From a virus, in IMG/VR virus record IMGVR_UViG_3300050821_002864, positions 1 through 22,098 of that record: a stretch of DNA of 22,098 nt; one strand, written 5' to 3'. Positions 1 through 20,176 of the stretch are shown one piece after another. Numbering within the stretch: position 1 is the first letter of the stretch; every line of letters begins with the position of its first letter. A program made the translations under genes and the position numbers. A model generated the notes under the pieces. It had not been told where the DNA came from. It ran no database searches and saw only the letters and a program-made list of their open reading frames with translations.

Positions 1-1026
1 GATTCGCGACCTTGTCGGCACGCAAACGACCACGATCAGCGCGTCAACCACCGAGACCACGATCGTCACGGCTGGCGCCGCTGGTGTGTTCAATGACCTG
101 ATCATGCTCATCGTGAGCAACACGTCGACGGCCACGGCAAGCACGACCTGGCGGCCGAACTTATCGACCATCTTCCCGGTCAAATTGCCGTCCGATGCGG
201 CGGCCGGAAGTGCTGTCTTGGCGATACCTGAATTAAAGGTGGCATTGGCCGGGACCGCGGCGCCCGTCGCTCCGACGCCCCAATTCGCCGCGGTGCCTGG
301 GTTGACGGTCCACGGTGCGCCGCCCTGGTTGGCCGTGACGGTGCCGGACACTGACCACGGCCCGCCGCTTTGCGTGACCGCCCCGATGACGTTCGCCCCG
401 GTGGGCAAGGCATTCGTGATCGCGGTGACTGCGGTGACCGTAGTGACGGTGCCGATGTTCCAGGTGCCGGATTGCGAAACAGCCGGAACGTTGGTGATGA
501 AGGCGTTGACGCCCGGCACCAAGACGGCGCCCGGCGAGGTGCCGTAGTTCGCCATCGCGCCAAGCGTGCCGCCCGCCCAGAGGGTGGCGTTAACCGTCCA
601 CGGCGGCGTGCCCTGTTGGACCGTCCAAGTGCCCGACTGAGTCGCGGCGACGGTGCCGGTAACGGTGGCGTTGAGGTTCGCGGCCGTGGCTTGCGTAACC
701 GTTACGGTGCCAGAAACCGCCTGCGTGGCCGGGAAGTTGGCTACATTGACCTGGCCGGTGCCGTCGGTGGGCAGCTCGACCCGGAGTGCACCAGCGGCTG
801 TCCCATGACCTGTGGCTGTGGTAACGCCGTTAATCGATGAGATGTCACATTTGGCGGCATTGTTCGCGAGAACGAACTGCGTGTTAACGCCGGCCGGGTC
901 GATGGTGACCTTGGCGATGATCCACGGGCCGGCACCCGTGCCGCTGACATCGATAAAGTCAACGCCGCCGGGGATTGTCGCGCCAGCTCCGTCAAGCGCC
1001 GAGCGTGTGCTGACGGAGAAGGCCAT
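1..1026 (-). CDS. QSGTW-repeat tail/virion protein, broken at its C-terminal end, open at left edge
   Basis: The frame is open from ATG at 1026 to the window edge (342 codons, no stop). The product is Thr/Val/Gly-rich and beta-type. Imperfect repeats of the form VTQSGTWTV, VSQSGTWNI and VTQSGGPWSV alternate with PPWTVN/APWTVN and VSGTVT segments. Such repeats are common in phage tail and baseplate-periphery proteins. The recognisable protein ends at about position 140 with the residues KMVDKFGRQVVL. After that the minus-strand reading becomes Val/Leu-rich nonsense that looks antisense, while the plus strand reads like the missing C-terminus (see 2-145). The start follows the preceding gene's TAG by 3 bases (TAGTCCATG). 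It is probably a virion surface or tail component. I am sure it is a real gene in 140-1026 and unsure of anything to the left of that. Confidence 0.75.
   Translation of the reverse strand, partial: MAFSVSTRSALDGAGATIPGGVDFIDVSGTGAGPWIIAKVTIDPAGVNTQFVLANNAAKCDISSINGVTTATGHGTAAGALRVELPTDGTGQVNVANFPATQAVSGTVTVTQATAANLNATVTGTVAATQSGTWTVQQGTPPWTVNATLWAGGTLGAMANYGTSPGAVLVPGVNAFITNVPAVSQSGTWNIGTVTTVTAVTAITNALPTGANVIGAVTQSGGPWSVSGTVTANQGGAPWTVNPGTAANWGVGATGAAVPANATFNSGIAKTALPAAASDGNLTGKMVDKFGRQVVLAVAVDVLLTMSMIRSLNTPAAPAVTIVVSVVDALIVVVCVPTRSRI
2..145 (+). other. Inverted C-terminal fragment of the neighbouring tail protein
   Basis: The plus-strand frame starting at base 2 reads IRDLVGTQTTTISASTTETT, then a VTAGAAGVFNDLIMLIVSN stretch, then TSTATAST. 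This is the kind of Thr/Ser-rich beta domain that usually follows a GRQVV-type segment in this class of small phage virion proteins. The minus-strand gene supplies such a GRQVVL segment and stops making sense exactly where this fragment begins. The fragment therefore looks like the C-terminal part of the same or a sister protein in opposite orientation. After base 145 the plus-strand frame is just the antisense of the tail gene. The family resemblance is from memory; the orientation conflict is seen directly. Confidence 0.55.
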
Positions 1027-1029
1027 GGA

Positions 1030-1206
1030 CTATCCAAACATGATCAGATTCAACATCCCGAGGCCGGGGGTGGGCGGGCCGCCGAACTGCGCGTTGAATT
1101 GCGTGGACAAGGCGCCTGTCAGGGGCGGCGGCCCACCGCCGGGCGCTCCCGCCGTTATCTGCGAATGCGTCTTGACCGACTGCTGTGCGCCGCCGATCGC
1201 GCTCAT
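1030..1206 (-). CDS. Small Gly/Pro-rich protein, 58 aa
   Basis: This short ORF starts with ATG at 1206, overlapping the upstream gene's TGA in an ATGA, and ends with TAG at 1030-1032. It therefore fills the gap between two genes exactly. The N-terminus is polar (MSAIGGAQQSVKTHSQITAG), a PGGGPPP linker follows, then a short C-terminal stretch FGGPPTPGLG and a hydrophobic end MLNLIMFG. I recognise no family. The placement between a coiled-coil protein and a tail/virion protein suggests a small virion or tail-assembly part. Translational coupling is the main evidence that it is real. Confidence 0.7.
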   Translation of the reverse strand: MSAIGGAQQSVKTHSQITAGAPGGGPPPLTGALSTQFNAQFGGPPTPGLGMLNLIMFG

Positions 1207-1502
1207 CGATGATCGCTCAGCGCTTTACTCAATCCGGCAACGCGTCGATTGTGGGCCGCCCGGTCCCTCTCCAACGCATCTTCCTTCTGCTTGATGGCCG
1301 CCGCTCTTTTGTCGAGCTCGGCCTGTGCGGCTGCCGCACGATCAATTACAGCCTGAGCTTTTTCGAGCGCCTCTTTCGAGGAGACCTCAAGCGCCTGCAA
1401 TTGCTTCACACGGTCGAGCGCCGCGGGCGTTTGAATGAACGCCGCCAGCTGGATCAGCTTTTCGAATTCGGTGCTACCGCCACCGCCGCCCATTGTGCTC
1501 AT
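1203..1502 (-). CDS. Coiled-coil protein, 99 aa
   Basis: After a flexible MSTMGGGGGST start, the rest is one long Ala/Lys/Glu/Gln helix (about residues 15-95, with stretches such as RVKQLQALEVSSKEALEKAQ and ELDKRAAAIKQKEDALERD). It should form a coiled coil. I chose ATG 1502, which lies two bases after the upstream TAA. An ATG at 1526 in the same frame would overlap the upstream gene by 22 bases. The Shine-Dalgarno site is weak, so coupling to the upstream gene is likely. A role as a tail-fibre chaperone or a trimerising virion rod is possible but unproven. Confidence 0.75.
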   Translation of the reverse strand: MSTMGGGGGSTEFEKLIQLAAFIQTPAALDRVKQLQALEVSSKEALEKAQAVIDRAAAAQAELDKRAAAIKQKEDALERDRAAHNRRVAGLSKALSDHR

Positions 1503-1504
1503 GT

Positions 1505-1867
1505 TTACACCGTTGGATACCACCACACATCAAAGCCGCATGTGGTGGATGTCCCCAGAGTGAATTGAATGCCCTGCCCGATAGCGCCCTGCCACCAGAA
1601 ATCGCCGTTGTCGGGCATGTCGAGAACGATCGACCCGTTGGCCGCAAGTTGGATTGCCTGACTCAACGCGGTTGGTGTCGTGTCCTGAATCGTCAGCGTG
1701 GTTGCAGCCAGGACGGTAGTGATCAGCCGGTAGATGCCGCATCGCTGCCCGGGGTTGGGGGCCTGCAAGAGAAAGTTGGCCGCCGTCAGAACCGGAATAG
1801 CCGTGCCGGTCACATTGCCGAACGCGTGCATCAGCTGCGACCGGGAATTGAGGGTGACTCCGCCCAT
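1505..1867 (-). CDS. Small beta-rich virion protein, 120 aa
   Basis: The product is beta-rich throughout (GIYRLITTVLAATTLTIQD, ANGSIVLDMPDNGDFWW, GFDVWWYPTV), with two Cys residues that could pair. It has no signal peptide or membrane segment. The layout, alternating hydrophobic strands with an aromatic C-terminus, resembles small beta-sandwich proteins decorating heads or tails of phages. A good ribosome site, GGAGG, sits 9 bases before the ATG. The neighbours are a signal-peptide beta protein upstream and a coiled-coil protein downstream. I cannot name a family. Its place in the tail/virion end of the operon is the main functional hint. Confidence 0.75.
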   Translation of the reverse strand: MGGVTLNSRSQLMHAFGNVTGTAIPVLTAANFLLQAPNPGQRCGIYRLITTVLAATTLTIQDTTPTALSQAIQLAANGSIVLDMPDNGDFWWQGAIGQGIQFTLGTSTTCGFDVWWYPTV

Positions 1868-1906
1868 ACCTAAATACCTCCGGCGTTTTTCCTTTTGGGG
1901 CGGGTT

Positions 1907-2341
1907 TCAGTACTCCCACACCGTGACTGGCGAAGTCGACGCATTGGTGATGCCGTTGAAGCCTGCCGTCGCCACAGCCGCACCACCAACATCGGCCGGC
2001 ATGTTGAGGCAGTTATTGGTGACGTTCGCGGCAGCCGCGGAATTGCGGGAGAGCAGGAACGATCCAGCGCCCAAGGCTGCCACAACGATCGGCGCCCCTG
2101 ATGTATTGATCGGGGCAATCCACACGTCGTTGGTGGCACCAACATTGCAAATCTTGAGTCCCCTCCGGGACGGGTTGGCAGCCACAACCAGAGTGGAGGA
2201 GTTCGCTACCGTGACAGCGGTGGCAAACGGCAGCGATGCAGTCGGCTGCGACCGCGACGGGCCAGCCAGAAACACCACCGCAGCGACAGCCAAAACCGCA
2301 GCAGCAACAGCGGCTTGCCAGATTATGTTGAAGGCCTTCAT
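1907..2341 (-). CDS. Signal-peptide or membrane-anchored beta-sandwich protein, 144 aa
   Basis: The N-terminus (MKAFNIIWQ followed by a long Ala/Val stretch to about residue 27, then GPSRSQP) is a signal peptide or signal anchor. The remainder is a beta domain with the pattern RRGLKICNVGATNDVWIAP followed by GAPIVVAALGAGSFLL. That pattern resembles small phage virion proteins whose core reads roughly R-x-L-x-I-x-N-x-G-x-x-x-I-x-V. The 12017-12343 protein has a similar core without a signal. AAAGGA lies 6 bases before the ATG, and the gene starts 3 bases after the upstream TAG. Export of a virion-like domain is unusual: it may act in the periplasm or envelope during exit, or be a lysogenic surface factor. 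Function unknown. Confidence 0.75.
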   Translation of the reverse strand: MKAFNIIWQAAVAAAVLAVAAVVFLAGPSRSQPTASLPFATAVTVANSSTLVVAANPSRRGLKICNVGATNDVWIAPINTSGAPIVVAALGAGSFLLSRNSAAAANVTNNCLNMPADVGGAAVATAGFNGITNASTSPVTVWEY

Positions 2342-2344
2342 GAC

Positions 2345-2683
2345 CTATCCTTTCCGGAGATAGAGGAACACCAACGGGAACACGGTCAGACCTGAGAACA
2401 CGGCAGCCGCGATAATCCGCAGTTGCGTAGGCTCGTAAACACAGAACGACCATACACCCGATGCCGTGATGACCGCTAGTAGGAGCAGAATCCTAGTTGC
2501 GCAAATGCGGGCGATCGCCTGCGCCATCTCGAGCAGCGCCGGGCCGACGTCCTCCTCGCGGGCAGGGCCGGGCTCGGGCTCGATGCGGAACGACGGCCGC
2601 ACCTGTGGAGCAGCCGCAGGGAACGCCTGCACATTCTCGAACATGTCCCTCTGGGGGAGGGTCGGCGGGGGTTGTGCGCTCAT
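2345..2683 (-). CDS. Two-helix membrane protein, holin-like candidate
   Basis: The first 55 residues are Pro-rich and soluble. Two hydrophobic helices follow at about 61-81 (CATRILLLLAVITASGVWSF) and 88-108 (RIIAAAVFSGLTVFPLVFLY), ending in the basic LRKG. The start overlaps the preceding stop as ATGA. The length (112 aa) and two-helix layout are compatible with a holin, but the long soluble N-terminus is not typical. No endolysin or spanin pair is visible next to it, so lysis function is only a possibility. A membrane-associated virion or entry factor is an alternative. Confidence 0.7.
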   Translation of the reverse strand: MSAQPPPTLPQRDMFENVQAFPAAAPQVRPSFRIEPEPGPAREEDVGPALLEMAQAIARICATRILLLLAVITASGVWSFCVYEPTQLRIIAAAVFSGLTVFPLVFLYLRKG

Positions 2684-2865
2684 CCGAAAAAGTCCTCCGC
2701 TTCGGCTGGGTTAATCTTGTGTTCGATCTGCAGCAGCTTGGCCCCGTTGGCGACCGCAGCATTGATATCGCGCTTGGTCGCTTTGCTGTCGGTAATCACA
2801 GCCCTGACCGCCGCCTTGAGGTCGGCCAGGAAGTCGTCTGCCTTGGGTTTCCGGGGCTTGGTCAT
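2680..2865 (-). CDS. Small Lys-rich helical protein, 61 aa
   Basis: A compact all-helical product with a basic start (MTKPRKPKADDF), an amphipathic middle (LADLKAAVRAVITDSKATKR) and an acidic end (PAEAEDFFG). It is coupled on both sides by ATGA overlaps, which supports expression. I do not recognise a family and see no membrane segment or Cys. It sits between the HTH-carrying virion-type protein and the two-helix membrane protein. It could bind DNA or a partner protein; nothing in the sequence decides this. Confidence 0.75.
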   Translation of the reverse strand: MTKPRKPKADDFLADLKAAVRAVITDSKATKRDINAAVANGAKLLQIEHKINPAEAEDFFG

Positions 2866-3575
2866 TTGTCCTTCACGGAAAACAGCTTCAGGAACTGCTG
2901 CAGCTCGGCGGGGTTGATGTCTTCCGCTGGCGCTGCGGGCAGTTCAAACCTCGGCAGCGATAGATCGGTTGTTGTAGATAAAGATTTGTCCCACTCAGAC
3001 GGCGGACGCACGCGTTGCGACGCCATCTTTGCTTTTATTCTCCCGTGCAATATGCCTTTAATTTGGTCTACTGAGAGTCCCGTCTTTTCAGATATCTCAC
3101 CCTGCGTGTGCCCTAGCTTTCTGAGTTCATCAATCCTCTGCACTGTCTCTGCTGAGTGAGTCTTTGGTCGACCACCTTTGTATATCCCAGGTGATTCCAC
3201 GCCGTAGAGCTTAGAAGCTCTGGTTAGATTCTGGTTAGTTCCCCCTTCAAAACTTTTAAGAGTGTTGCCCTCTTCGACGTGTTTGCGAAGAGCGCCCACT
3301 CTCTCAGAGGTCCAAGTCCTGGGACTGCTTGCGCGAGTAGGTGCCAATGCCTGATTCCCCCACTTCAATATCCCCAGCCCGGGCGCGGCAGCGAAATTGT
3401 CCGGGTTCTGCAATGCCCGGCCGACGAAATTATTCGGCAGCCCAAGAGCTCTTTGCATGCCGCCGCTGGCGAAATTCGCCGCAGAACCGACAATCGGAGG
3501 AACCGGATTCGGCCCTTCCGGCTGGTGCGTCATAGCCAGCGCATCATCCGAACCTATGGCAAGCGCGTCGCTCAT
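2862..3575 (-). CDS. DALA-motif virion-type protein with tandem helix-turn-helix region
   Basis: 237 aa. It begins with two copies of the short motif shared with its neighbours (MSDALAIGSDDALAM). A Gly/Ala/Asn-rich part follows to about residue 85. Residues about 87-125 start TWTSERVGALRKHVEEGNTL and resemble the WT-x-E-R-V opening of GcrA-type DNA-binding regions. Residues about 140-180 (ETVQRIDELRKLGHTQGEIS, then EKTGLSVDQIKGILHG) are a clear resolvase-like or sigma-4-like helix-turn-helix. The C-terminal 50 residues are Pro-rich, ending FLKLFSVKDK. DNA for the HTH part is markedly poorer in GC (about 49% over 3061-3300 by hand count) than its surroundings, suggesting an acquired module. 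The start is the ATGA overlap with the upstream gene. It may be an internal protein that binds phage or host DNA after ejection; this is inference. Confidence 0.8.
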   Translation of the reverse strand: MSDALAIGSDDALAMTHQPEGPNPVPPIVGSAANFASGGMQRALGLPNNFVGRALQNPDNFAAAPGLGILKWGNQALAPTRASSPRTWTSERVGALRKHVEEGNTLKSFEGGTNQNLTRASKLYGVESPGIYKGGRPKTHSAETVQRIDELRKLGHTQGEISEKTGLSVDQIKGILHGRIKAKMASQRVRPPSEWDKSLSTTTDLSLPRFELPAAPAEDINPAELQQFLKLFSVKDK

Positions 3576-5260
3576 TGCGCCAGCGCGTCCTCATCATCGC
3601 GCGCCGCCAGCGGGTCGCCCACAATGCCGCCGCGCACCAGGGGAATGGTCGCCTGCGGTATCGCTTGTTGAATCGGCACCACGCGGCGCTCTTTCAACCG
3701 CGCCTGCCCGCGAGGTGAGTTGGCTATATTCCCGGCAACGCCCTTGGCCTGACCGTACAATGTCGTTGCCTGTGCGCGCTCCGTCGTGCCTGAACTTCTC
3801 CCCAGAGGAGTCAGCACCTTGACACCGGCACGCGCCAGCTCCTGAAGCCCGCCACCGCGACCGGCTGCATACGCCAACTTAGCATCAGTCGTGCCAGTGA
3901 GAGCCTGTCTGAGCTTTGCCGGCGATAGCGTACCTTCCGCCGCCGCCTCCCCAGCACCGGAGACCGACTTTTTGAGAACAATTAAATTGTACCACTGACG
4001 ACGGGCTTCTTTCAGATCCTGTTGGGCTTGCGCCAGCTCAATAGCCCTCGCCTGCGCTGGCCCCCCAGGCCTCCCGCGCGAAAACGCATTTTTTACAGCC
4101 CTATCAACACCGCGCTCCATCGCATCGTCGAGCGCCCCACGAATACGTGTCGCGTAATAGGCTACATTCGGATCAGGATCATCCATGGCACGCTGCAGCG
4201 GCGTGCCCTTTCGCGTTGCTGCCTGGTAATTTTTCCCAGGCATGACGCCGCGGCCACTGGCCCGCGTTATAAATCCATTGTTGATAGCGGCTGCTTGCGC
4301 CGCAATACGATCGGTTATTTGGGCTGGAAGCCCTTCAGCAAAAGCATCTTGAACGATTTTCGCCAATTCATTGCCGAGCGCCTGATCATAATTCACCGGC
4401 AATCGCTGAGCTGAGCTTTCAAACGTATTCCCTAACCGCTGTTCGACTCGCTGAAATACGTCAGGCTCGAGAAGTTCTCCGGGCTGAAGATGTTCCCCCA
4501 CCCCCTCTAGCGCACCGCTCCTCGTATAAGCATCAGAAACAGCCTGATTATTCCGGGATGCCGATCCGCTCACGGATAAATCGCCCAACTCTTCCAAATG
4601 CTCAAGGGTGCGGCTGCCGGTGACTTTACTTGCAGTCGGCTCGATGCCGCGGTCGCGCAATTGCTGCACGAAGGGTGCCCTGCGAGGCGGTATATTTGGC
4701 ACACGAGGCGACTGCGCCGCAGCGGCAGCGCCGGGCAGTCCGCCGGCCACCCCACCGATGAGGCGGCCCACGCCGCTGCCCGTCAGTTCCTCGCCAGCCT
4801 GCGCGCCTGCGCCGCTGAGCGCCGCCGATCCTATCTTCAGCGGCAGCCCTCCCGGCCCGACATAGCTTGCCGGGTTGCCGACTGCCTCGCCGATCGATGC
4901 GCCATATCGGCCCGCCGTTGTCTCCGGCTCGTGCATCTTGCCGGTGACATTCTTCTCCACAATGCCCATCGACTCTTCTTGGCCCGGCACGCCCTCCACG
5001 CCCTGCAATGTCGCCTCTGCCTGCCCCGAGGAGGACATTGCCGAGATGATCCCAGACACGACGCCGCGCGGAAAGGAGTGAAAGAAATCGACCAGCGATG
5101 AGGGTTCGGGTTTCTCCGTGGGTTCCTTAGTTTCGAACCACTCGGGATGGGACTGCTTGACTTCGCCGAACTTGGCCTGCGCATCATCCAGCGATGCGCC
5201 TTCCGGCCCATGCACCGTGAACTTGCGGCCGTCCGGACTGGTGAAGATGAAATCCGTCAT
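3572..5260 (-). CDS. Large internal virion / DNA-ejection protein candidate, 562 aa
   Basis: The product opens with a small beta-type head domain (MTDFIFTSPDGRKFTVHGPE, then GASLDDAQAKF), a start I associate with large internal or putative injection proteins of phages. Residues about 130-185 are Gly/Ala-rich and weakly hydrophobic (IGSAALSGAGAQAGEEL, GVGRLIGGVAGGLPGAAAAA) and could insert in or lie on a membrane. The remainder is mostly helical and charged, ending DEDALAQ, a copy of the motif common to its neighbours. It is coupled by ATGA on both sides. With no tape-measure gene in the window and a podovirus-type order, an ejected channel or DNA-transfer protein (in the role of P22 gp16/gp20) is the likeliest job. 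No lysozyme or peptidase motif is evident. Confidence 0.8.
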   Translation of the reverse strand: MTDFIFTSPDGRKFTVHGPEGASLDDAQAKFGEVKQSHPEWFETKEPTEKPEPSSLVDFFHSFPRGVVSGIISAMSSSGQAEATLQGVEGVPGQEESMGIVEKNVTGKMHEPETTAGRYGASIGEAVGNPASYVGPGGLPLKIGSAALSGAGAQAGEELTGSGVGRLIGGVAGGLPGAAAAAQSPRVPNIPPRRAPFVQQLRDRGIEPTASKVTGSRTLEHLEELGDLSVSGSASRNNQAVSDAYTRSGALEGVGEHLQPGELLEPDVFQRVEQRLGNTFESSAQRLPVNYDQALGNELAKIVQDAFAEGLPAQITDRIAAQAAAINNGFITRASGRGVMPGKNYQAATRKGTPLQRAMDDPDPNVAYYATRIRGALDDAMERGVDRAVKNAFSRGRPGGPAQARAIELAQAQQDLKEARRQWYNLIVLKKSVSGAGEAAAEGTLSPAKLRQALTGTTDAKLAYAAGRGGGLQELARAGVKVLTPLGRSSGTTERAQATTLYGQAKGVAGNIANSPRGQARLKERRVVPIQQAIPQATIPLVRGGIVGDPLAARDDEDALAQ

Positions 5261-6690
5261 GGCCCCATCTCGACAGTCCAGCCGTCGCCGACGTCACGCG
5301 ACTGCTTCGGTCCTGATGCGCCCTGTGCCCCGCTGAGCGGTTTCTGGCCCTTCGGAACAAACGCGCCCGGCACCTCGGGGACCGTCATCGGCGTTCCGGC
5401 GCGCTGCTCTTGCGTCGCTTTGAATTCGCGCTGAATCTCCCGCACCATCTGGTTCAGTATCGTGCGGTAGGCTTGCGGGCTCTTGGCTGTGCTCAAGTTT
5501 TCAAGCGCACGCCGCTGAAGGTCGACGTCAAGCACGCCGGTCGGCTTCATCGCCCTCGCCCACAATTCAGCCAAGGCAAGGTTTTGAGTGTCGAACGCCG
5601 CAATAGGCGGATTGCTTACCCCTCTCCGTACGGCTTGAATATACTCATTGAGTTTTACCCAGGAGCCGCGCGGCACGGCGTCCGAAGCCGCGATAGCATC
5701 CGGCACAAGTGACGCAAGCTTACGCGAGATGTTTTCCATCTGAGCATTACGAGTGCCGACACTGCGCTCGCCGGACACATCGCCCTGATAGCGCGGCGCG
5801 CTGTAGTCGGGGTTGAGTTCCATCACGCGGGCCATTGTTTGACGATCGAGAGGCTGGCGCGGATTAGTGATTGGCGGCAGCTTGTATTCCGCAATCGCTT
5901 GCGCGCGGGACTCTATCGCCGCTTCTTGACCCTGCCCCTCCGTGAACCGATTGTGCCGCTCCGTCTCATCCTGCCGCCGCTGGTCGAGCTTCAGTCTCTC
6001 CTCAGACTGCCGCCACTGCTGGTGTTGCTGAAGGAGCTGGGCACTGGTTCGCTCCGTCTCCGTTCCCAACCTGGCTCGCTGCTCCAGCAGCCGGCCGAGC
6101 GTCTCGAAGTCGTGTTGCTGCGCCGCCTGCATGACGGCGCGGTCGTCGTACTTCGCGGCCGTCAACTGCAGCTCCATCGCCTTCTGCTCAAGCGCAAGCT
6201 TCCGGCTTTCCAGGGTGGCCTTGTACTGGTCTAGCGAGGCCTGGTTGGTTTCCAGGATGCGCTTGTTCTCGGCGTTCCACTGCTTCAAGTTCTCCTCGAA
6301 CTTGTCCTTCCGCCCCTCCTGGTAGCCGTTCATGGCGCCCGTCATGGCGGCGAGCGCGTTGGTGGCGTGATTGCGCGTCAGGCCGCCCGCTATGGCGCCG
6401 AGCACCCCGACGGTCGCCAGCCATACCTCATCGGCCGCCTGTTCCTTGGGCTGCCCGGGCACTGGCGGGGGCTTCTGCATCTGCGGCGCCTGCGGCAGCG
6501 GCTGGCGCACCTCACGGATTTGACTCTGCCGAACCGGCTCCAGCGCGGTCTCGCGCTCCTGCAGCGTCTTGTTGCGCGCTCCCATCGAGCCGCGGATATC
6601 CTCAATGTTGCGGTCGATACCGGACAGGTCCGGCGGCGCCGGCATCGCCAGCGCGTCGGACGGAAGGGCGAGGGCGTCGGCTTCAGGCAT
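5257..6690 (-). CDS. Coiled-coil internal virion protein candidate, 477 aa
   Basis: It starts MPEADALALPSDALAMPAPP, two copies of the shared DALA motif. A Pro/Gln-rich linker (residues 60-85) and a hydrophobic helix at about 89-107 (VWLATVGVLGAIAGGL) follow. A long Gln/Glu/Arg/Lys coiled coil runs from about 125 to 270. The C-terminal third is globular and ends DGWTVEMGP. I chose ATG 6690 because AAAGGA lies 6 bases upstream and the reading is protein-like from there; an ATG at 6744 would add residues that are the upstream gene in another frame. Length, coiled coil and position match internal head proteins delivered with the genome. No enzymatic motif seen. Confidence 0.8.
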   Translation of the reverse strand: MPEADALALPSDALAMPAPPDLSGIDRNIEDIRGSMGARNKTLQERETALEPVRQSQIREVRQPLPQAPQMQKPPPVPGQPKEQAADEVWLATVGVLGAIAGGLTRNHATNALAAMTGAMNGYQEGRKDKFEENLKQWNAENKRILETNQASLDQYKATLESRKLALEQKAMELQLTAAKYDDRAVMQAAQQHDFETLGRLLEQRARLGTETERTSAQLLQQHQQWRQSEERLKLDQRRQDETERHNRFTEGQGQEAAIESRAQAIAEYKLPPITNPRQPLDRQTMARVMELNPDYSAPRYQGDVSGERSVGTRNAQMENISRKLASLVPDAIAASDAVPRGSWVKLNEYIQAVRRGVSNPPIAAFDTQNLALAELWARAMKPTGVLDVDLQRRALENLSTAKSPQAYRTILNQMVREIQREFKATQEQRAGTPMTVPEVPGAFVPKGQKPLSGAQGASGPKQSRDVGDGWTVEMGP

Positions 6691-6886
6691 CGCGAATCCT
6701 TTCGATCGAGATGCGTGGGATTGACGATTGTTTGGTGTGCACAATCATAATAATTGCGAGCCTACCAAGGATCAGGCCGCAACAACTCGCCTCATCGTGA
6801 GGGTCAGAAAAAAATGGATAAATACCGCACGCCGACAAAGCGCGCGTTACCAGGTTGTGCTTATATTCTCTGAAATCCACGTCCAT
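6683..6886 (-). CDS. Small Cys-containing hydrophobic protein, 67 aa, uncertain
   Basis: An ORF fits exactly between two certain genes. ATG 6886 lies one base after the upstream TGA, with GAAGG about 9 bases before it, and the stop overlaps the next start by 8 bases. It contains a short hydrophobic run (ASCCGLILGRLAIIMIVHT), three Cys and a basic end. Base composition is unlike the flanks: 47% GC over 6741-6840 by hand count, including a run of seven A on the plus strand. It could be a small membrane protein. Alternatively the stretch is not coding and carries control elements. Spacing and ribosome site favour a gene; composition and lack of a known family argue for caution. Confidence 0.45.
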   Translation of the reverse strand: MDVDFREYKHNLVTRALSACGIYPFFSDPHDEASCCGLILGRLAIIMIVHTKQSSIPRISIERIRDA

Positions 6887-6887
6887 A

Positions 6888-7928
6888 TCATGCCGCCTTC
6901 AACGTGATGGTATTGCCGCCGCCGGCCACTCGGCCGAACGCCGCAGTAGCGTTGACAAGCGTATTGGTGAAGTTCTGGTCGGCATTCATCTGCATCTGCG
7001 CGATCTGGATCAGCTGGGCATCGCCCGCAAGCGAGTTCTGGATGTTCTGCTGAATCATCTGCTGCGTGGCGGCTGTGGTCTGCTGATCGATCTGCGCCTC
7101 GATCTGGGGCCAGCGGCTATCCTTCGATATGTCTTTCACCCCCTGGTTATACAGCACCTGCCGCCACTGGTTGGTGAGGTCTTGCTTCATCTGGGCGACG
7201 GTGGCCGCCTGGGCAGGATTGAGGTTCGACCCCTGGCTCGCCAGCGCAGACGCATTGGCCTGCGCGGGGTCGATCTGGCCTGGCAACGGGGGTTGCCCGC
7301 GGCCGAGCGCCAGCGCGAGCGGGGCGGCCCCAAGCGCGAGCTTTGTCCATGGCGAGCTCATGGTGTCGCCGAGCGTCTTTGTCAGGCCGCCACCGCTGTC
7401 GGCTGAAGCATTCGCGCCAGCGCCCGTCAAACCCGACCATTCTTCGCCTTGGGAAAATGACGGCGCCGCCGCCGTATCGCCCACGCCCCCTGCCGGGCCG
7501 AATGCCGTATCGATCGCCGAAAGTCCGGGGTCTGAGGCGAACGCGCCCCCGGTGAACGCATCTGCGGATCCGGCGAGCGCATCCCCGGCGAACGCGCTGA
7601 GGCCGCCTGCGCCGCTAGCCAGCGCATCGACGCCCCCAAGGCCGAGGGCAGCATCAGCCGAATTTGCCGCGAACAGCCCCGTGTCAAACGCGCCAAAGGC
7701 GGCATCGGCCGCGCCAAGATCGGCCGCGCCTAACGCCGCATCGGCCCCGAGCGCCGCGCCACCCCCACCAATAATCTCCGGTGCCAGGAACGGGGCGGCG
7801 ACCAAGAGTGCGGCGGCCCCCGTTTCAATCATGTCAGCCGGGTGATTGATGAACGACGACGGCGCGTGCGCGAGGTCGTTGCCCAGGTTTCCGAAGTTTC
7901 CTTCAAACAAATCGCTGAAGAAACTCAT
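6888..7928 (-). CDS. Internal virion / ejection protein candidate, 346 aa
   Basis: It begins MSFFSDLFEGNFGNLGNDL and has a hydrophobic Ala/Gly segment at about residues 36-60. A long Ala/Gly/Asp low-complexity region follows, holding two shared motifs (VDALASG and GDALAGS). The C-terminal 120 residues are a Gln/Asn/Ala helix bundle (PAQAATVAQMKQDLTNQW, SRWPQIEAQIDQQTTAATQQ). This layout, a low-complexity head and a helical Gln-rich tail, is typical of internal head proteins of short-tailed phages. ATG 7928 is chosen because it overlaps the upstream stop as ATGA; an ATG at 7982 would run back into the upstream gene. The WPQI sequence recurs near the C-terminus of the upstream gene's product, hinting at a shared domain. 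Confidence 0.8.
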   Translation of the reverse strand: MSFFSDLFEGNFGNLGNDLAHAPSSFINHPADMIETGAAALLVAAPFLAPEIIGGGGAALGADAALGAADLGAADAAFGAFDTGLFAANSADAALGLGGVDALASGAGGLSAFAGDALAGSADAFTGGAFASDPGLSAIDTAFGPAGGVGDTAAAPSFSQGEEWSGLTGAGANASADSGGGLTKTLGDTMSSPWTKLALGAAPLALALGRGQPPLPGQIDPAQANASALASQGSNLNPAQAATVAQMKQDLTNQWRQVLYNQGVKDISKDSRWPQIEAQIDQQTTAATQQMIQQNIQNSLAGDAQLIQIAQMQMNADQNFTNTLVNATAAFGRVAGGGNTITLKAA

Positions 7929-9499
7929 GCCGCGGCTCCTGGCTGCTGCCGTTGCACAATGGCGGACAGTATCTGCGGCCACTGCGGCAGGGTCGCGGGG
8001 TCAATGCCGAACCGCGCAAAAATACCCTGCCGTATCTGGTTGATCGCATCTTCGTTAAGACCCCCAACCGCCTCGCCAAAGTTTGCCCCACCTCCGGGTG
8101 CCCCTCCGAGCGCTAAGGCATCCGACACAAAACCCGGAGGGGCTCCCGCCGTGCCGCCGAGATTGCCGGCAAAGTTTCCGAGTTGGGAAGCGAAGTTGCC
8201 GCCACCGACTGCGCCTGTAGCAGCGGCCAGGGCCTGGTCGGGTGTGAGGTTGGTTGTCCCGGCGCCACCGCCACCGCCTGCGCCGGGCACTCCCTGATCG
8301 AAGGGGGCTGCTACGGTGCCCGGCACCCCACCGGGCGCCAGCGCATCCACCACGCTGCCGTCCGCCTCCTGGATGCCGCCGGCCGCACCGGGCGAGGCAA
8401 ACGACAGCGTCTCAAGAGGCGAGCCGCCAAAGCGAACGCCACCGCCGTCGCCAGACACGCCGCCCTGAAACCCTCCGGTGTCGAAATTGGTCTGGCCAGG
8501 CTGTTGGCCGGCCTGATCTGTGAAAGTTATGTTGCCCCCTCCCATTCTTCCCTGATCTTCGGGCGATGGCTGGGCGCTGGTACTGAGAACGCTCGTGGTT
8601 CCCGGCCCTACAGGTCCGCCGGGGTTGGTTCCAAAGGGGCTGTCAAACAGCCCGGCGATCGGGTCCGCCAGATCGCCCCTTCCGGGGTTTGCAAGCTGTT
8701 CAAGGTCTTGTGGTGTCGCTTGCGGCGCGCCGGGGGCGAGCGCATCCGGTCCCACGCCAGGAGTACCTGGACTCGTCATCGCAATGCCGTGGCCACCAAA
8801 TTCATCACCTTGCGGGCCGGTAGCGCCGAACATCCCGCCACCAAAGCCGCCGCTGAAACCCGTGCCCATAGTCGCGGTTTGCCCGGTGATGCCAGTCGTG
8901 GCGCCAGACATATCGACCCCAGCCCCACCCGGGCCAAAACTGCCGACATCATTTATTCCGAGCGCGTCGGCCAGCCCACCACCGGGGCCGAGAGCATCAC
9001 CACCTGCGCCAGCGCCGCTGAATCCACCCGCCCCGCCAAAACCGCCCGTCCCGCCAAAACCAGGCCCGGCCCCAGCAGCCTCCCCGGTTACCCCAGCCGC
9101 AGCCCCGGACTGGTCAGTGGCGCCAGCTCCAAACCCGCCGCCCGCCGCACCGCCAAAACCAGCCGCGCCGCCAAATCCGGCAGCCTCTCCGCCGGCTCCA
9201 AACCCCTCCCCGGTCGTTGCCGCCGCGCCGGTAACGCCCGCGGTGGCCCCTGACTGGTCCGTTGCGCCAGCCCCGAACCCGCCGCCAGTGCCGCTATCCG
9301 GCCCCACGCCCTCGCCGCCAGTGCCGCCCAGCCCGCCGACACCGCCTCCCGCGTCGCCAATTCCACCGATGCCACCACTCTCGCCTGTCGCTGCAGCATC
9401 CCCACCGCCACCACCATCCCCGCCGCCGCCATCGCCCCCGCCGCCTCCGAGGACCATGCGCCAGGACCAGTCAGCCGTATCGTGCATAAGCTCGCTCAC
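7925..9499 (-). CDS. Gly-rich repetitive virion protein, about 524 aa
   Basis: An N-terminal stretch (ELMHDTADWSWRMVL) is followed by about 400 residues dominated by Gly with Ala, Asp, Phe and Thr. A block reading GAGATDQSGATAGVTG appears twice, with a diverged third copy (GVDMSGATTGITG). Several DALAPG/DALALGG motifs occur from the middle to the C-terminal part. The C-terminal 55 residues are ordered (EDAINQIRQGIFARFGIDP, then LPQWPQILSAIVQRQQPG). I chose GTG 9499: AAGGA lies 8 bases upstream and the gene then begins one base after the preceding TGA. ATG 9487 is the alternative. It is flexible and structural rather than enzymatic, likely an internal or fibre-like component. A Pro-rich plus-strand frame over the same DNA is its antisense shadow. 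Confidence 0.75.
   Translation of the reverse strand: MSELMHDTADWSWRMVLGGGGGDGGGGDGGGGGDAAATGESGGIGGIGDAGGGVGGLGGTGGEGVGPDSGTGGGFGAGATDQSGATAGVTGAAATTGEGFGAGGEAAGFGGAAGFGGAAGGGFGAGATDQSGAAAGVTGEAAGAGPGFGGTGGFGGAGGFSGAGAGGDALGPGGGLADALGINDVGSFGPGGAGVDMSGATTGITGQTATMGTGFSGGFGGGMFGATGPQGDEFGGHGIAMTSPGTPGVGPDALAPGAPQATPQDLEQLANPGRGDLADPIAGLFDSPFGTNPGGPVGPGTTSVLSTSAQPSPEDQGRMGGGNITFTDQAGQQPGQTNFDTGGFQGGVSGDGGGVRFGGSPLETLSFASPGAAGGIQEADGSVVDALAPGGVPGTVAAPFDQGVPGAGGGGGAGTTNLTPDQALAAATGAVGGGNFASQLGNFAGNLGGTAGAPPGFVSDALALGGAPGGGANFGEAVGGLNEDAINQIRQGIFARFGIDPATLPQWPQILSAIVQRQQPGAAA
8865..9290 (-). repeat. Internal amino-acid repeat block in the Gly-rich protein
   Basis: Three imperfect copies of a unit reading roughly G-x-x-x-T/M-x-x-SGA-x-x-G-x-TG lie at about 9231-9285, 9086-9137 and 8885-8925. 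They are separated by GFGG-type spacers. The first two copies are nearly identical in protein; the third has diverged. This suggests growth by tandem duplication. Confidence 0.6.
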
Positions 9500-9500
9500 G

Positions 9501-9980
9501 TCAGAGTTCCTTGATGAAAACGGTTTCCCACGGAACATAGCCCAGATCCCGCATGCTCTCATCATGCGGGTGCGCGGTCTTGAGCCGGCCATAGGCGTAC
9601 CGGACGCCTGCCTTGCGCAGTTCTTCCAGCGCGACCTCGCGCAGACGGCGGCCGATGCCGAGCTTTCTCAAGGCAGGTTCCACATACCACGCATCATCCT
9701 GCGCCACTCGCGCGTTGAAGTGCAGGTCACGGTGCCAAAAGTGGCTTGAGTAGCCCTGCACAACATCACCCGTATCACGCACCGTGATGTAGACTAAGCG
9801 CCCCTCGCGCTGCATTTGAAGATAGCGAGGGATATCGAGGTCAGAAGGAAAGCCGCGCAATTCCACACCGTGCGCATCGAACATCCCCTTTTGGCGCAAC
9901 CAATCCCACGCATCGGGGTTGAAGTCCTCGCGCTGGTACGTGAGGTCGATAGTCCGATAGGTGGTCAATTCGTTCATCAT
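9501..9980 (-). CDS. GNAT-fold acetyltransferase-like protein, 159 aa
   Basis: It has the GNAT pattern: a strand pair (RLVYITVRDTGDVVQGYSS) and then motif A at about residues 99-117 (WYVEPALRKLGIGRRLREVA), with the R/Q-x-x-G-x-G acetyl-CoA loop as RKLGIG. Helix EELRKAGVRYAY follows, and a late LGYVPWETVFIKEL strand typical of the fold's end. The start is ATG 9980, overlapping the upstream TGA. T7 gp13, an internal virion protein, is placed in the same fold superfamily to my knowledge, so a virion role without catalysis is as possible as acetylation of a host or phage protein. The location just before the block of large internal proteins fits that. Substrate unknown. Confidence 0.85.
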   Translation of the reverse strand: MMNELTTYRTIDLTYQREDFNPDAWDWLRQKGMFDAHGVELRGFPSDLDIPRYLQMQREGRLVYITVRDTGDVVQGYSSHFWHRDLHFNARVAQDDAWYVEPALRKLGIGRRLREVALEELRKAGVRYAYGRLKTAHPHDESMRDLGYVPWETVFIKEL

Positions 9981-10330
9981 GCGACTCCGAATGCCTGATC
10001 CAGCAAGGCGTGCTCGATGTTGTGCGTGTCCTGCCACGAATAGAAATACCGCGGATCGTCAAAGTCGAGGTCGGCCAGGTTGGCCCCCGTGACGCCGGCG
10101 ATCGGCCGGAGCAGCTCGTGCCAGTTCTCATGAGCGTTGAGCCAGAACCGGATTTCCTGCCGGTTGCCACCAAAATACATGATCGGGAATTCCGGCAGCA
10201 CGACTGCGGGCGTTCTTTTGGCGAGCACCGCGTTGTAGCGCAGGTGCTGGCGGAAGTGGCCGTCCGACCACGCGCCGAGCCCGGCGACGTCGCCATAGAC
10301 GACGGTGTTGGGCTGGAACTCTGTGGTCAT
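9977..10330 (-). CDS. Conserved-looking unknown protein, 117 aa
   Basis: An acidic, aromatic-rich globular protein with His/Trp-containing segments (SDGHFRQHLRYNAVL, INPUT-free HENWHELLRP core, YFYSWQDTHNIEHALLDQAF). No signal peptide, membrane helix or recognisable catalytic motif is present. ATG 10330 overlaps the upstream stop as ATGA, and the next gene (GNAT-fold) overlaps its stop the same way, so the two are probably made together. An ATG further upstream (10402) would run into the previous gene. I do not recognise the family. Pairing with the GNAT gene suggests a shared function. Confidence 0.75.
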   Translation of the reverse strand: MTTEFQPNTVVYGDVAGLGAWSDGHFRQHLRYNAVLAKRTPAVVLPEFPIMYFGGNRQEIRFWLNAHENWHELLRPIAGVTGANLADLDFDDPRYFYSWQDTHNIEHALLDQAFGVA

Positions 10331-10563
10331 TTCCTGGCCTCGGCGAGCTGCTTTTCCAGTTCGACAATCTTTGCCTGTGCTTGCGACAACGCCACGCTGC
10401 ACGACAGGCCCTCGTTGATTTCCTTGATCAGCTTGGTGCTCAGTGCCTGCTCAGTGGGCGACTGCTGCTGCGCCAGCGCAACCTGCACTGCCAAACAAGC
10501 AAAACCAAGGAAGCTCAATGCGGCCAGCATTCCAGCAACATAGAAAACAATCCGCATGATCAT
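10327..10563 (-). CDS. Small membrane or exported coiled-coil protein, 78 aa
   Basis: One hydrophobic segment at residues about 4-31 (IVFYVAGMLAALSFLGFACL, then AVQVALAQQQ) could be a transmembrane anchor or a signal peptide with an ALA site. A helical, coiled-coil-prone tail follows (SVALSQAQAKIVELEKQLAE). That is the layout of an inner-membrane spanin, but it is shorter than usual and no outer-membrane lipoprotein partner is embedded or adjacent. It is coupled by ATGA to the fibre-like gene upstream and to the unknown gene downstream. The start at 10563 is chosen for that overlap. Lysis, fibre assembly or envelope function are all open. Confidence 0.7.
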   Translation of the reverse strand: MIMRIVFYVAGMLAALSFLGFACLAVQVALAQQQSPTEQALSTKLIKEINEGLSCSVALSQAQAKIVELEKQLAEARK

Positions 10564-12020
10564 GCTCCAAAGCAGGTCCATGACAGCGCCGCCTGCGCGG
10601 TGCCGAACGTTATTGCTAACCCGCTGGTCGACGGAACAGCTAGAACTGTCGACGCCGCAGTGCCCGGAGCGACAGTGCATTTAGGTGCAACACCGTAGGT
10701 TGCTCCAAACGTGATCGAGCATGTGGTTCCGCTGGTATAAGTAAGTGATCCTGCAGTGTCGCTTGATCCGGTTCCGAGCGCAAACCCAGCACAAGCATTT
10801 GCCGTTGGTGCCGGTCCTGTAAATGCTAGATGCCCGTTGAAATCGAATTTCATCGAATTGGCAAACAGCGTCGTCGCATTGCTGGTAAGAAAAGAAATGT
10901 TGGAGGGTATATTACTTCCAGACGAAGCGGCGGCTTGGCTAAAAGCTATGTCGGCCGTAAGACGCGAGGCGGCATTTGCAAAACCAAAAGCGGCAATCCC
11001 GCCCAGCGAATCCGCCGCAAGCGTATTTCCTCCCGTTCGGCTTTTCTGAAAACTTAGGCCGGGTCCGTTTGCGTCGCTTGTCGTATTCGTCAGCGAAAAA
11101 CCGGGACTTGATGAAACGGAACTCGTTGCGGTCAGGGTGCCCGTAGAAGCCTGCCATGATCCCGTAATCCCTGCCGATGCACCTAGAAAATTCAGCCAGT
11201 TCCCGGTGACCGTCGCTGACGACGCGTCGAGCGCATTGGCAACCGTAAACGATCCCTGCGTACCGAACAGGGTGCCGGTGGTGGCAACACCGCCCAGCCC
11301 GCCCTGGTTCGCGACTAGAAAGCCATTCTTCCAGCAAACGGCGCCGGTCTGGCACAACACTGCAAAGCCGGCATCCCAGGCCGATCCCTGCACCGCGTCG
11401 CCGGTGATAGAAAACGCCGAATAGCCCCACTTGATCGCAGGCGTCGATCCCGTTTGAACGAACAGGTCAGCTTCGATGCCTGCGCATTGACCGAACGTTC
11501 CGATGGACGGCGCCGCGCCGCAGACAGCGCCGACACCAAAATAATTTCCGAGATTGTTGTTGTTGGCGCCGACGTTCATGGAGAACACGGCGCTGACGTA
11601 TTGCCGGTTGGAGTCGACCGCATTACCGGCGGCCGTGAGGGTCGATTGAACGTGCAGGCTTTCGCGCGCCCCCGTCATGGCAGCGCCGCCGAAATTGTGG
11701 GCTATATTCAAGACCGACGTATAGTTAAGCACGCCGCTGACGGCAACGTTGTCCGTATTGAAGGCGAATTGGCTGCCCAGGAAATTAGTCGCCCCGATGC
11801 TACCGGTTGGGGTCTGTGTCACCAGCAGCCCTTGCGTCAGGCTGCCGGCCGGCGGGTTGATAATCAGCGGCGCAACAGGAGCAGAGACAGCGCCTTGCAC
11901 AAACGCGGTTGACGCGCACGCGTTGCTGCTGTCGCCGGCCGGTCGCGTCGGACATAGCACATTCTGCGCCAGCGCCGGCGAGCTCCACAGCAGGGCAAGC
12001 GCGATCAGCAGCCTCTTCAT
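10560..12020 (-). CDS. Tail-fibre-like protein with Sec signal peptide, 486 aa
   Basis: Residues 1-19 (MKRLLIALALLWSSPALA, then Q) are a textbook Sec signal peptide with an ALA cleavage site, odd for a tailed-phage virion protein. Next, PTRPAGDSSNACASTAFVQG matches the A-GDxS-x-x-A-T-TAFVQ motif frequent in phage tail fibres. The rest is Gly/Ser/Thr/Ala/Asn-rich beta structure with six or more Cys after the signal, compatible with disulfides outside the cytoplasm. The C-terminal part (APTANACAGFAL, GTTCSITFGATYG) looks like a bead-type beta end domain. ATG 12020 overlaps the upstream stop as ATGA. It may be a receptor-binding fibre, or a fibre derivative exported to the cell surface. The product class is confident; the destination is not. 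Confidence 0.8.
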   Translation of the reverse strand: MKRLLIALALLWSSPALAQNVLCPTRPAGDSSNACASTAFVQGAVSAPVAPLIINPPAGSLTQGLLVTQTPTGSIGATNFLGSQFAFNTDNVAVSGVLNYTSVLNIAHNFGGAAMTGARESLHVQSTLTAAGNAVDSNRQYVSAVFSMNVGANNNNLGNYFGVGAVCGAAPSIGTFGQCAGIEADLFVQTGSTPAIKWGYSAFSITGDAVQGSAWDAGFAVLCQTGAVCWKNGFLVANQGGLGGVATTGTLFGTQGSFTVANALDASSATVTGNWLNFLGASAGITGSWQASTGTLTATSSVSSSPGFSLTNTTSDANGPGLSFQKSRTGGNTLAADSLGGIAAFGFANAASRLTADIAFSQAAASSGSNIPSNISFLTSNATTLFANSMKFDFNGHLAFTGPAPTANACAGFALGTGSSDTAGSLTYTSGTTCSITFGATYGVAPKCTVAPGTAASTVLAVPSTSGLAITFGTAQAALSWTCFGA

Positions 12021-12343
12021 TGCGTCTGCTCCATTATGGTGAGTGGATTGTTGGAAGCGCTGGCGGCCAGCGCCTGCCATGCTTGCGCGGCGGCCGGGAA
12101 ACCGATCGTTCGATCGCCGCCGTTGGCGAATATGCGAAAGCCGCCGCCAAGGGACGCGAGCGACGGGGTCAGTGTGACGCTCGCGCCGCCGGACAGCACC
12201 GTGGTCGGGAACACGAAGATATCCACTGTTCCGGGATTGTGAAACGTGATCAGTTGGCGCGATGCATTTGAGCCGATGATGCTGATCGGACTGGTGCCCA
12301 GGTTGTTGACCGCCGTGATGGTGGAGTTTGCAAGCGTGCTCAT
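12017..12343 (-). CDS. Small beta-sandwich virion protein, 108 aa
   Basis: It is beta-rich with the core SRQLITFHNPGTVDIFVFP followed by GGASVTLTPSLASLGGGFRI, a pattern of small phage decoration or tail proteins (R-x-L-x-x-x-N-x-G-x-x-x-I-x-V). I chose ATG 12343 because it overlaps the upstream TGA as ATGA; an in-frame ATG five codons earlier is possible. It sits between the tail hub and the fibre-like protein, so it may join or decorate the tail. Its core resembles the signal-bearing protein at 1907-2341, which suggests an old duplication. Function inferred only from position and fold type. Confidence 0.8.
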   Translation of the reverse strand: MSTLANSTITAVNNLGTSPISIIGSNASRQLITFHNPGTVDIFVFPTTVLSGGASVTLTPSLASLGGGFRIFANGGDRTIGFPAAAQAWQALAASASNNPLTIMEQTQ

Positions 12344-14148
12344 GGCAGGATGCCCCATTCGTCGGCGTCGATGTATTCGATTGCGACCGCGTTGATGGCG
12401 AACAGCAGCACGGTCCCGGTGATGGTGGCCCCGAGCACCTTGCCGTAGCCGTCGACGCTGCTGTACGGAAAGCGGAAGCCGCCGCCGATGAAGATCACGG
12501 TGCCGAGCGAGTTATTCTGCCACGTCACCAGGCCGCCGGAGTTGTTGATCCAGTTGATTACCGAGGCAGCGGCCAGCGGATAGGAGACGCTGTTGTTTTC
12601 CGTCTCGACCTTCATGGTGAAGTTCTGCGCCAGCGAGGTCGTCACCGCGACGCCGGCCTTGATGGCCTTCTTGGCCTGGATGAGGTTGCCGTGGGACGAC
12701 AGCGCGGTGCGCAACGTCACCGGCACCGCGACGTTGGGGTTATTCAACAGTTGCGTGACATCACTTCCGCTCGACCCGAAGGTTTCGACCTGGGTTGTGC
12801 TGCCGAGCGGAATCGACGTGATAGCGATGAGGCTGCCCTGAGAGATGACAAACCACTTGTTCTGCTGAAACGCCACGATGATGGAGCGCAAGCCCAGGAC
12901 CGGGTCGAGGTACTTGAGCAGCAGGAGGTAGCAATGGATGTTGTTGAGGTCGTTGAGCGCCGCCGATGGCAGGAGGGAGAAGTCAGTGGCCTGGAAGATG
13001 CCGTCGAGATCATCGGAGACTTTCTGCACCGATGCCCCGAAGATCCCATAAACCCCCTGTTTGTTGGCGAACAGTACGAGGCGATTGTAGCTGAGTATCG
13101 TCATCGGGAATGACGTGCCGATATCGGAAGCGAGCGTCAGCGGCGTGAACAGCGTGATGGAGCCGGGGACTGTTACCGTGATGCTGCCGATCTGCTTTAT
13201 CGACTGGTCACCGAAGATGTAGAGGAAGTTATTGAGCGCCCGCAGCGCGGTAATGTTGTGGGCGAGGTCGGCATCCGTGATGGTGGTCGAACCTGCGGCG
13301 TTGGCGGGGTTGATGTCATCGAATCCCGCAGTTCCGGTAAAGTTCAGCTGCCGGAAGTTTCCCGATGTGGTTTTCGATACCCACCAGACCCGTCCGGCGA
13401 ACACCGCTATGGTGTTGCCGGAGACCTGGGGAAAGACCACCACCGTTGCGGTCGCAGGCGTTGTGTTTGCGCCCGTGAATACAACCGTAATCGCTGCTCC
13501 AGCCGCGTTGCCTGTTCCCGGGTTGGTAAGATTAACTGCAACAACCGATCCCCCAGAAAGGACAGCCGTTGCCGCAGCTCCGCCGGCGTTTCCTCCAGCG
13601 CCTCCTGTAAAGCTGACCGCGGGTGGTGCGCCATAACCTGATCCTCCATTAGTGACGTGGATATTCGGGGATATGCCTCCCGTCCCGGACTGGACGAACA
13701 ACGTCCCATCCCAGGTGGCGTAGCCCGCCAGCGGGTCCATGATCAGGATGCGCTGAGAATTATACACCGTCATGTCCGGGAGTGGCGAGAACGTTCCATC
13801 CGGAGCGAAAGTGGTCTTAACGCCAGTGTCCGCATTTATCGCAATGCCGGCGCCGAGGACCGTAAAGGCAATGATGTAATCGACGGCGCCGATGTTGGCC
13901 TCAAAGAATCGCGAGACGGTTTCCGCCGTCAGGGTCGCCAGTGTCGCGGCTGCGCCAGGCACCGCCTTTAGGTCGTTCCCCGATATCGGCTGCAGGTTTT
14001 CCATCCAGCCGGCCTCGGTCTCGGGGAGGTTCTGCCGAGCCGGCTTGGTGTTCATCTTCTCGAACTGCTGGAACGCGATGACCCTGGCCGTCTGCTGCGG
14101 CGGCGCGTTCTGGCCGGTGCGTTGCATGCGGTGGGCCTGGCGCGCCAT
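12340..14148 (-). CDS. Tail hub / DNA-stabilisation-type protein (P22 gp10-like), 602 aa
   Basis: A Gln/Arg-rich N-terminus leads to NLPETEAGWMENLQP, a start I associate with the phage tail-hub or packaged-DNA-stabilising class (P22 gp10-like). Most of the remainder is beta structure with repeated propeller-like units (SQRILIMDPLAGYATWDG, LRALNNFLYIFGDQSIKQIG, YNRLVLFANKQGVYGIFG, QNKWFVISQGSLIAI). At about residues 158-240 a Gly-rich repeat module (VTNGGSGYGAPPAVSFTGG and following) is inserted between propeller strands. The start lies four bases after the upstream gene's TGA. The place downstream of the adaptor gene supports a role closing the portal channel and forming the short tail. Assignment is by order and sequence style, not by search. 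Confidence 0.7.
   Translation of the reverse strand: MARQAHRMQRTGQNAPPQQTARVIAFQQFEKMNTKPARQNLPETEAGWMENLQPISGNDLKAVPGAAATLATLTAETVSRFFEANIGAVDYIIAFTVLGAGIAINADTGVKTTFAPDGTFSPLPDMTVYNSQRILIMDPLAGYATWDGTLFVQSGTGGISPNIHVTNGGSGYGAPPAVSFTGGAGGNAGGAAATAVLSGGSVVAVNLTNPGTGNAAGAAITVVFTGANTTPATATVVVFPQVSGNTIAVFAGRVWWVSKTTSGNFRQLNFTGTAGFDDINPANAAGSTTITDADLAHNITALRALNNFLYIFGDQSIKQIGSITVTVPGSITLFTPLTLASDIGTSFPMTILSYNRLVLFANKQGVYGIFGASVQKVSDDLDGIFQATDFSLLPSAALNDLNNIHCYLLLLKYLDPVLGLRSIIVAFQQNKWFVISQGSLIAITSIPLGSTTQVETFGSSGSDVTQLLNNPNVAVPVTLRTALSSHGNLIQAKKAIKAGVAVTTSLAQNFTMKVETENNSVSYPLAAASVINWINNSGGLVTWQNNSLGTVIFIGGGFRFPYSSVDGYGKVLGATITGTVLLFAINAVAIEYIDADEWGILP
13429..13677 (-). repeat. Gly/Tyr beta-repeat module inserted in the tail hub
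   Basis: Two units, VTNGGSGYGAPPAVSFTGG with a following ATAVLSGGSVVAV, then LTNPGTGNAAGAAITVVFTG. They interrupt otherwise propeller-like sequence. The same unit type occurs in the proteins at 14350-15252 and 16001-17236. Confidence 0.65.
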
Positions 14149-14152
14149 CAGG

Positions 14153-14350
14153 TCACCACGTCGCTACGCCGACCGAAAAACCGATCGGACCAAAGCGCAA
14201 AGTACGATATTGACTCCAAGGAAGTTCACGCGTCTCCAGCCCGAACTTCCAAGTTCGCGGAAACAAGTAGAACCCAATCCCGCAATTCACCGTCCTCGGA
14301 ATGAGAAGCCAAATTGCAAAAGAACCAGTGCCAACTGTAAGATTAAGCAT
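14153..14350 (-). CDS. Small hydrophobic/aromatic unknown protein, 65 aa
   Basis: The product is short, aromatic and strand-like (GSFAIWLLIPRTVNCGIGFY, LFPRTWKFGLE, RTLRFGPIGFSVGVATW). ATG 14350 overlaps the adaptor gene's TAA as TAATG, and the hub gene starts four bases after its stop, so it fills a precise slot. Its DNA is visibly richer in A/T than its neighbours. The regular FG/IG pattern hints at a small beta barrel or membrane-associated protein. No family recognised. The expression context is good; function unknown. Confidence 0.65.
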   Translation of the reverse strand: MLNLTVGTGSFAIWLLIPRTVNCGIGFYLFPRTWKFGLETRELPWSQYRTLRFGPIGFSVGVATW

Positions 14351-15252
14351 TACGTCCTCCGCATCTTTTCGTAAAATGAGCGGTTGTACGGATTGGCAAT
14401 GCGGTAGCCGCCGGCGCCGGCAATGACGCGCGGCACGTAGCGGTCATAGTTGCGGGCGTAGTATTCCGACTGGCCAAAGTTCTGGTGCTTCATGAGCAGC
14501 AGCTCGGCCGCCTTGAACTGCACCGCCTGCGCCCACGGGTCGGGGATTTGCGTGTCGATGTCGGTCAGGGCGACGAGCGGCGAGGCAATCTGCACCACAT
14601 CCCATTCGGAGAGGTAGAGCTGGTTGGGCGGCGGGTCTACGTAGACCAGCTGGTCCTGCTGGTGGATCGTCCATATGCCGGGCTGGGAGGTGAAGCCCTG
14701 GGACTGGAGCATGCGCGCCCAGGCCTGGAACACCGTAAAGCCTCTGAAGCTCAGGGTGTAGCGCATGGTATTCCAGAGATTGGATATCGAAATGACGTTA
14801 AGGATGTTGATCAGCATCACCGGCGACGCTGCCGCGCCCGAGCCTATTCCTCCGATGGTGATGCTGGGGGCTGACGTGTAGCCCTGGCCCCATTGCGTGA
14901 GCGATATTGACGTAAGAACTCCGCCAGTAAGATTCCCAATCCCAAGAGCAGTAGTCCCGCCTGGAGGAGCAGCAGCAAAAGTGACTGGTACTGTAGAACC
15001 GGCACCATAATTGCTACCTCCGGCCGTGACGTTGGCCCCCGCCACCGCACCGACGTAGTTGTAGGTTTCCTTGTTGAGCAGCAGTTGCACGCCGGTTTTC
15101 AGCGTGCGCACGCACTGCATGTCGAGCGACACGTCCTTGCGGGCGTCGTTGATGCGGCTGATTATCTCGGCTTGCGACCAGGCGCTATTGGTCGAGTCGT
15201 GGATGAGCGACTGGACCTGGTTAACGTAGTCCTGCAGCGCGAGCGTGGACAT
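14350..15252 (-). CDS. Head-tail adaptor (gp4-like connector), 300 aa, with inserted repeat module
   Basis: The N-terminal helices (LQDYVNQVQSLIHDSTNSAW, then SQAEIISRINDARKDVSLDM) are the usual opening of podovirus head-tail adaptors that dock under the portal. The C-terminal part (PDPWAQAVQFKAAELLLMKH, QSEYYARNYDRYVPRVIAGA) also fits that class. Between them, at about residues 68-145, lies a Gly-rich beta-repeat (VTAGGSNYGAGS, then WGQGYTSAPSITIGG) that breaks an otherwise helical protein. Without it the chain would be about 220 aa, nearer the size I would expect. ATG 15252 follows the upstream TGA after six bases. The product would join the packaged head to the tail hub encoded two genes on. 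Confidence 0.75.
   Translation of the reverse strand: MSTLALQDYVNQVQSLIHDSTNSAWSQAEIISRINDARKDVSLDMQCVRTLKTGVQLLLNKETYNYVGAVAGANVTAGGSNYGAGSTVPVTFAAAPPGGTTALGIGNLTGGVLTSISLTQWGQGYTSAPSITIGGIGSGAAASPVMLINILNVISISNLWNTMRYTLSFRGFTVFQAWARMLQSQGFTSQPGIWTIHQQDQLVYVDPPPNQLYLSEWDVVQIASPLVALTDIDTQIPDPWAQAVQFKAAELLLMKHQNFGQSEYYARNYDRYVPRVIAGAGGYRIANPYNRSFYEKMRRT
14820..15051 (-). repeat. Gly/Tyr beta-repeat module inserted in the adaptor
   Basis: Two units (VTAGGSNYGAG with PVTFAAAPPGG, and LTQWGQGYTSAPSITIGGIG) separate the two helical parts of the adaptor. A hand count over 14941-15000 gives 34/60 GC, lower than most flanking adaptor sequence. This fits a later insertion. Confidence 0.6.
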
Positions 15253-15258
15253 TCATTC

Positions 15259-17236: not shown

Positions 17237-17245
17237 GGGGCGACC

Positions 17246-18262: not shown

Positions 18263-18276
18263 AGGTCACTTCCTCA

Positions 18277-19655: not shown

Positions 19656-19656
19656 G

Positions 19657-20109: not shown

Positions 20110-20133
20110 GCCTTGGATTGGTATTCTTTCCTA

Positions 20134-20146: not shown

Positions 20147-20156
20147 TGTATGGGAA

Positions 20157-20174: not shown

Positions 20175-20176
20175 CT

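Follow-up and report, generated by a model that had tools for sequence, protein, structure and literature searches.

A phage tail gene divided head to head between two strands at a contig end, very probably by a fold-back chimera

The contig and its tail gene

The stretch analysed here, referred to as the window, comprises all 22098 bases of an IMG/VR record that is classed as linear. The record represents part of a tailed phage whose structural genes lie on the minus strand, with the portal gene at the right end and further virion proteins (Table 1). The left end is occupied by the gene for a phage tail or fibre-like protein, a minus-strand ORF (1-1026) without a stop as far as base 1; its correctly oriented portion, part A, is truncated at the 3' end by the join described below. 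The protein has no family match in Pfam or PHROGs and its relatives are absent from cultured phage records, while the repeats of part A gave partial matches in 80 IMG/VR loci. When the neighbouring gene (1505-1867) was used as the query, the scan found no relatives; a homologue of this gene is present in 6 of 49 related records.

One sister contig, L102 (IMGVR_UViG_3300021478_000160, 12682 bases), matches window positions 9415-22096 with 100% identity and covers that part only. Its end and the right end of the window are 2 bases apart: both records break at almost the same point inside the portal gene. The C-terminal domain of the tail protein is absent from the close capsid relatives. Seven relatives, with a major capsid protein 77-81% identical to that of the window, carry a small serine recombinase of the resolvase/invertase type just upstream of the terminase large subunit gene, either directly or with one gene between. 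In this phage the equivalent site would lie outside the window, past its right end, and by analogy may also hold a serine recombinase.

Table 1. Features of the window and recombinase genes of seven relatives
Feature	Record	Positions	Strand	Basis or remark
Contig end	Window	1..1	.	~0-4 nt from where part A would resume
Inverted piece S, first ~45 residues of the C-terminal domain naturally following part A	Window	1..136	plus	Profile, alignments, DNA match
Join	Window	125..142	.	Alignment gap between the pieces; exact bases inferred
Part A, correctly oriented tail/fibre-like protein gene	Window	131..1026	minus	ORF and profile A1 match
Major head protein	Window	17246-18262	minus	
Small serine recombinase	L181	1040-1555		
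Small serine recombinase	L182	4486-4989		
Small serine recombinase	L183	7919-8503		
Small serine recombinase	L184	6657-7331		
Small serine recombinase	L185	7226-7675		
Small serine recombinase	L186	7383-8039		
Small serine recombinase	L187	8106-8579		

One gene on two strands

The translation of the minus-strand ORF runs ...LTGKMVDKFGRQVVL and then AVAVDVLLTMS... up to the contig end, and bases 2-136 of the plus strand translate to IRDLVGTQTTTISASTTETTIVTAGAAGVFNDLIMLIVSNTSTAT. In homologues (L082-L085, L089, L093 and others) the two parts form a single frame on a single strand, of the form ...DKFGR(Q/S)VxL-x-x-x-(I/V/M/F)RDLVGTQTTTISAST.... With plus-strand bases 2-148 as the query, 20 IMG/VR loci were recovered; residues 1-45 are 87% identical in the best of them. 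The four closest homologues are 84-89% identical to the plus-strand piece, whose residues there come after ...DKFGRQVxL and three linker residues, in the same strand and frame; the C-terminal domain ends ~109 residues on.

A profile built from 16 homologous sequences (A1) gave the same picture. On the minus strand, its model positions 3-52 match window bases 127-276 (E 3e-11); on the plus strand, the match starts at base 2 and takes in model position 52 onward (E 1e-20). This double-strand match is far above chance, and a separate six-frame search returned it as well. Across 100 homologous IMG/VR loci, a set that includes some contigs fetched twice, A1 was uninterrupted in 95 and matched both strands in none; only in the window is it split at a single point over two strands. 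By comparison with the homologues, then, the minus-strand gene (1026 to ~131) and plus-strand bases 1 to ~136 are adjacent parts of one gene, and the original prediction that the C-terminal part lies on the wrong strand is borne out. The homologues do not continue with the residues that the minus strand encodes over 1-139. These residues match only antisense sequence: seven matches to the frame AVAVDVLLTMS... were confirmed in viral_contigs, and every one is antisense to an intact version of the C-terminal domain.

Position of the join

At the DNA level, window bases 2-124 align with 4001-4123 of the best homologue, L083 (80% identity), and bases 135-198 align with 3995-3932 on the opposite strand (78% identity), with bases 125-134 aligned to neither side. 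The two pieces are thus ~4 nt apart in L083 (base 2 corresponds to 4001 and base 135 to 3995). Since they are so close, the contig reads as part A followed by the reverse complement of S, halting where S began. An exact 29-mer of S occurs in no other viral contig among those returned, so the true order is shown by no sister contig.

The minus-strand residues AVA are probably the natural three-residue linker of the homologues. As AVA fills the linker, and base 1 would occupy the third position of the linker's final codon, the codon count places the join most likely at 130/131. On that placement, S would directly follow part A in the true genome. The minus strand had been described as coherent down to about 140; its coherence was confirmed, but the end point shifts, as the strand probably runs slightly further, through the AVA linker, to a join most likely at ~130/131. 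The true right edge of S is uncertain, lying between about 127 and 142, with S taken as bases 1 to ~130. The hexamer GCCACG (131-136) fits both sides of the join and is a candidate for shared bases, which number at most ~6-12 nt.

A piece length of exactly one maxK of 127 was considered as proof of an assembly origin and rejected: base 1 (G) is the third codon base before ATT, whereas base 130 implies a C at that place, so that S seemingly reaches at least 130.

Explanations for the join

The flip is real in the record, and nothing marks it as a biological switch. Switches of the Mu or P1 type depend on an invertase, on a pair of recombination sites and on an alternative gene end that can itself be used. 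The likeness to the Mu G and P1 C segments, on which the original prediction of an invertible host-range switch was built, is that here too the 3' part of a tail-type gene is inverted; unlike those segments, the inverted piece is far too short and cuts through a domain, and the window supplies no invertase or alternative coding end and, as far as it reaches, no recombination sites. No match to PF00239 or PF00589 was found in the window, that is, neither a serine nor a tyrosine recombinase and hence no invertase gene. A repeat search of the window found no long inverted repeat at the join and nothing beyond microhomology; when the two flanks were compared in eight homologues, inverted repeats reached 5-8 nt at most, within the range of shuffled controls. 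Set against sites of ~26 bp, the join shows at most ~6-12 shared bases, and the outer half of a second site would fall outside the window. S comprises only the first ~45 residues of a C-terminal domain of ~110 residues; flipping it would ruin that domain without providing a replacement. Nor does the window encode an alternative tail end: the only matches to the minus frame of 1-130 are antisense to that same domain.

A small site-specific segment of ~130 bp that flips inside the tail gene and switches its C-terminus is therefore very unlikely, even though inversion between two short repeats would yield the observed order and tail-gene invertases are known. The main point sustaining programmed inversion is the small serine recombinase of the seven relatives, but that gene lies near the terminase, away from the tail gene, and the break falls in the middle of a conserved domain that is split in none of the 100 homologous loci. 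Slightly less probable still is a programmed micro-inversion of ~130 bp that would act at very short repeats, be driven by a small serine recombinase encoded elsewhere in the genome, near the terminase, and disrupt the C-terminal domain. The short microhomology also fits a spontaneous, non-programmed inversion or rearrangement in this phage lineage. Such an event would leave the tail gene broken and its coincidence with the contig end unexplained, and no sister contig spans the join to attest it, L102 being confined to the right-hand part of the window; its probability is accordingly slighter again. The remaining candidate, and the most remote, is that the plus-strand piece comes from a different phage or from another copy of the gene, placed head to head with the minus-strand one. 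The origin of S in this genome is unproved and such domains are common, yet the profile match of S takes over precisely where that of the minus-strand piece stops (model position 52), and a second head-to-head or convergent gene would show its own end rather than a domain start cut midway.

In all likelihood, a fold-back (inverted) chimera produced the join at the contig end, which would make it a laboratory or assembly artefact rather than biology. This alternative, which the original prediction had also raised, gains support from the homologues: two close segments, adjacent in the order taken from them, are joined here in inverted orientation, and the contig ends at their boundary. Adjacency and inversion are read from the alignments, and a laboratory or assembly step is the cause that we infer for them. 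In an amplification or library-preparation step, a strand whose copying had reached the end of part A would anneal at its 3' end, by a few complementary bases, to the nearby opposite strand ~130 bases downstream, and would then be extended back through S towards part A. An assembler following such reads would pass from part A into reverse-complemented S and halt where part A would recur; at a thinly covered contig end, a few chimeric fragments could suffice to give part A, the reverse complement of S and then a stop. In the true genome, as the homologues suggest, part A, S and the remaining ~65 residues of the domain very probably all follow one another on the minus strand. Against an artefact, the minus frame happens to remain open up to the contig end. 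No hairpin was found at the end of any other locus fetched, so that this collection gives no base rate.

Published artefacts offer close parallels. Among chimeras of multiple displacement amplification (MDA), 85% are inverted, mostly within 10 kb, with complementarity of 2-21 nt (Lasken and Stockwell 2007, PMC1855051); the join studied here, judged from sequence alone, shares with them the inverted orientation and the close segments, and GCCACG would be a candidate for the few complementary bases. Amplification chimeras have an overlap peak at 6 nt and a spacing peak at 250-300 nt (PMC4595205), compared with a spacing of ~130 nt or less here. Sonication libraries yield reads with a reverse-complemented stretch between two short inverted repeats (PMC10908179). 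In the PDSM model of these end-repair chimeras, such a stretch is reversed within one fragment, as would be the case here, although they were described for human DNA reads and the present case is a contig end. De Bruijn assemblers, which stop at branch points, produce ends as long as maxK, with k of 99-141 in use (PMC10914622), similar in size to the inverted piece. By analogy, the join thus carries the published signature of inverted chimeras: a nearby segment, inverted, with putative short complementarity.

Consequences and further features of the window

The consequence is one of quality control only: bases 1 to ~130 need to be trimmed or to carry a flag. If the end is left untrimmed, gene callers add ~45 false residues to the minus-strand tail protein, and such ends would be counted as matches when viral contigs are scanned for invertible host-range genes.

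Several other features of the minus strand may be recorded. Three different virion proteins (12340-14148, 14350-15252 and 16001-17236) have a similar glycine-rich repeat domain (NGGSGYGAPPxVSFTGG-like), and each matches the same PHROG families (phrog_460, 701 and 19630). Over 2862-9592, a short DALA(L/M/P) motif, for example SDALAMP, recurs near the ends of several adjacent ORFs, one of which (2862-3575) also contains a helix-turn-helix-like stretch, GRPKTHSAETVQRIDELRKLGHTQGEISEKTGLSVDQIKGIL. Finally, a GNAT acetyltransferase (PF00583) is encoded at 9501-10037, amid the virion genes.
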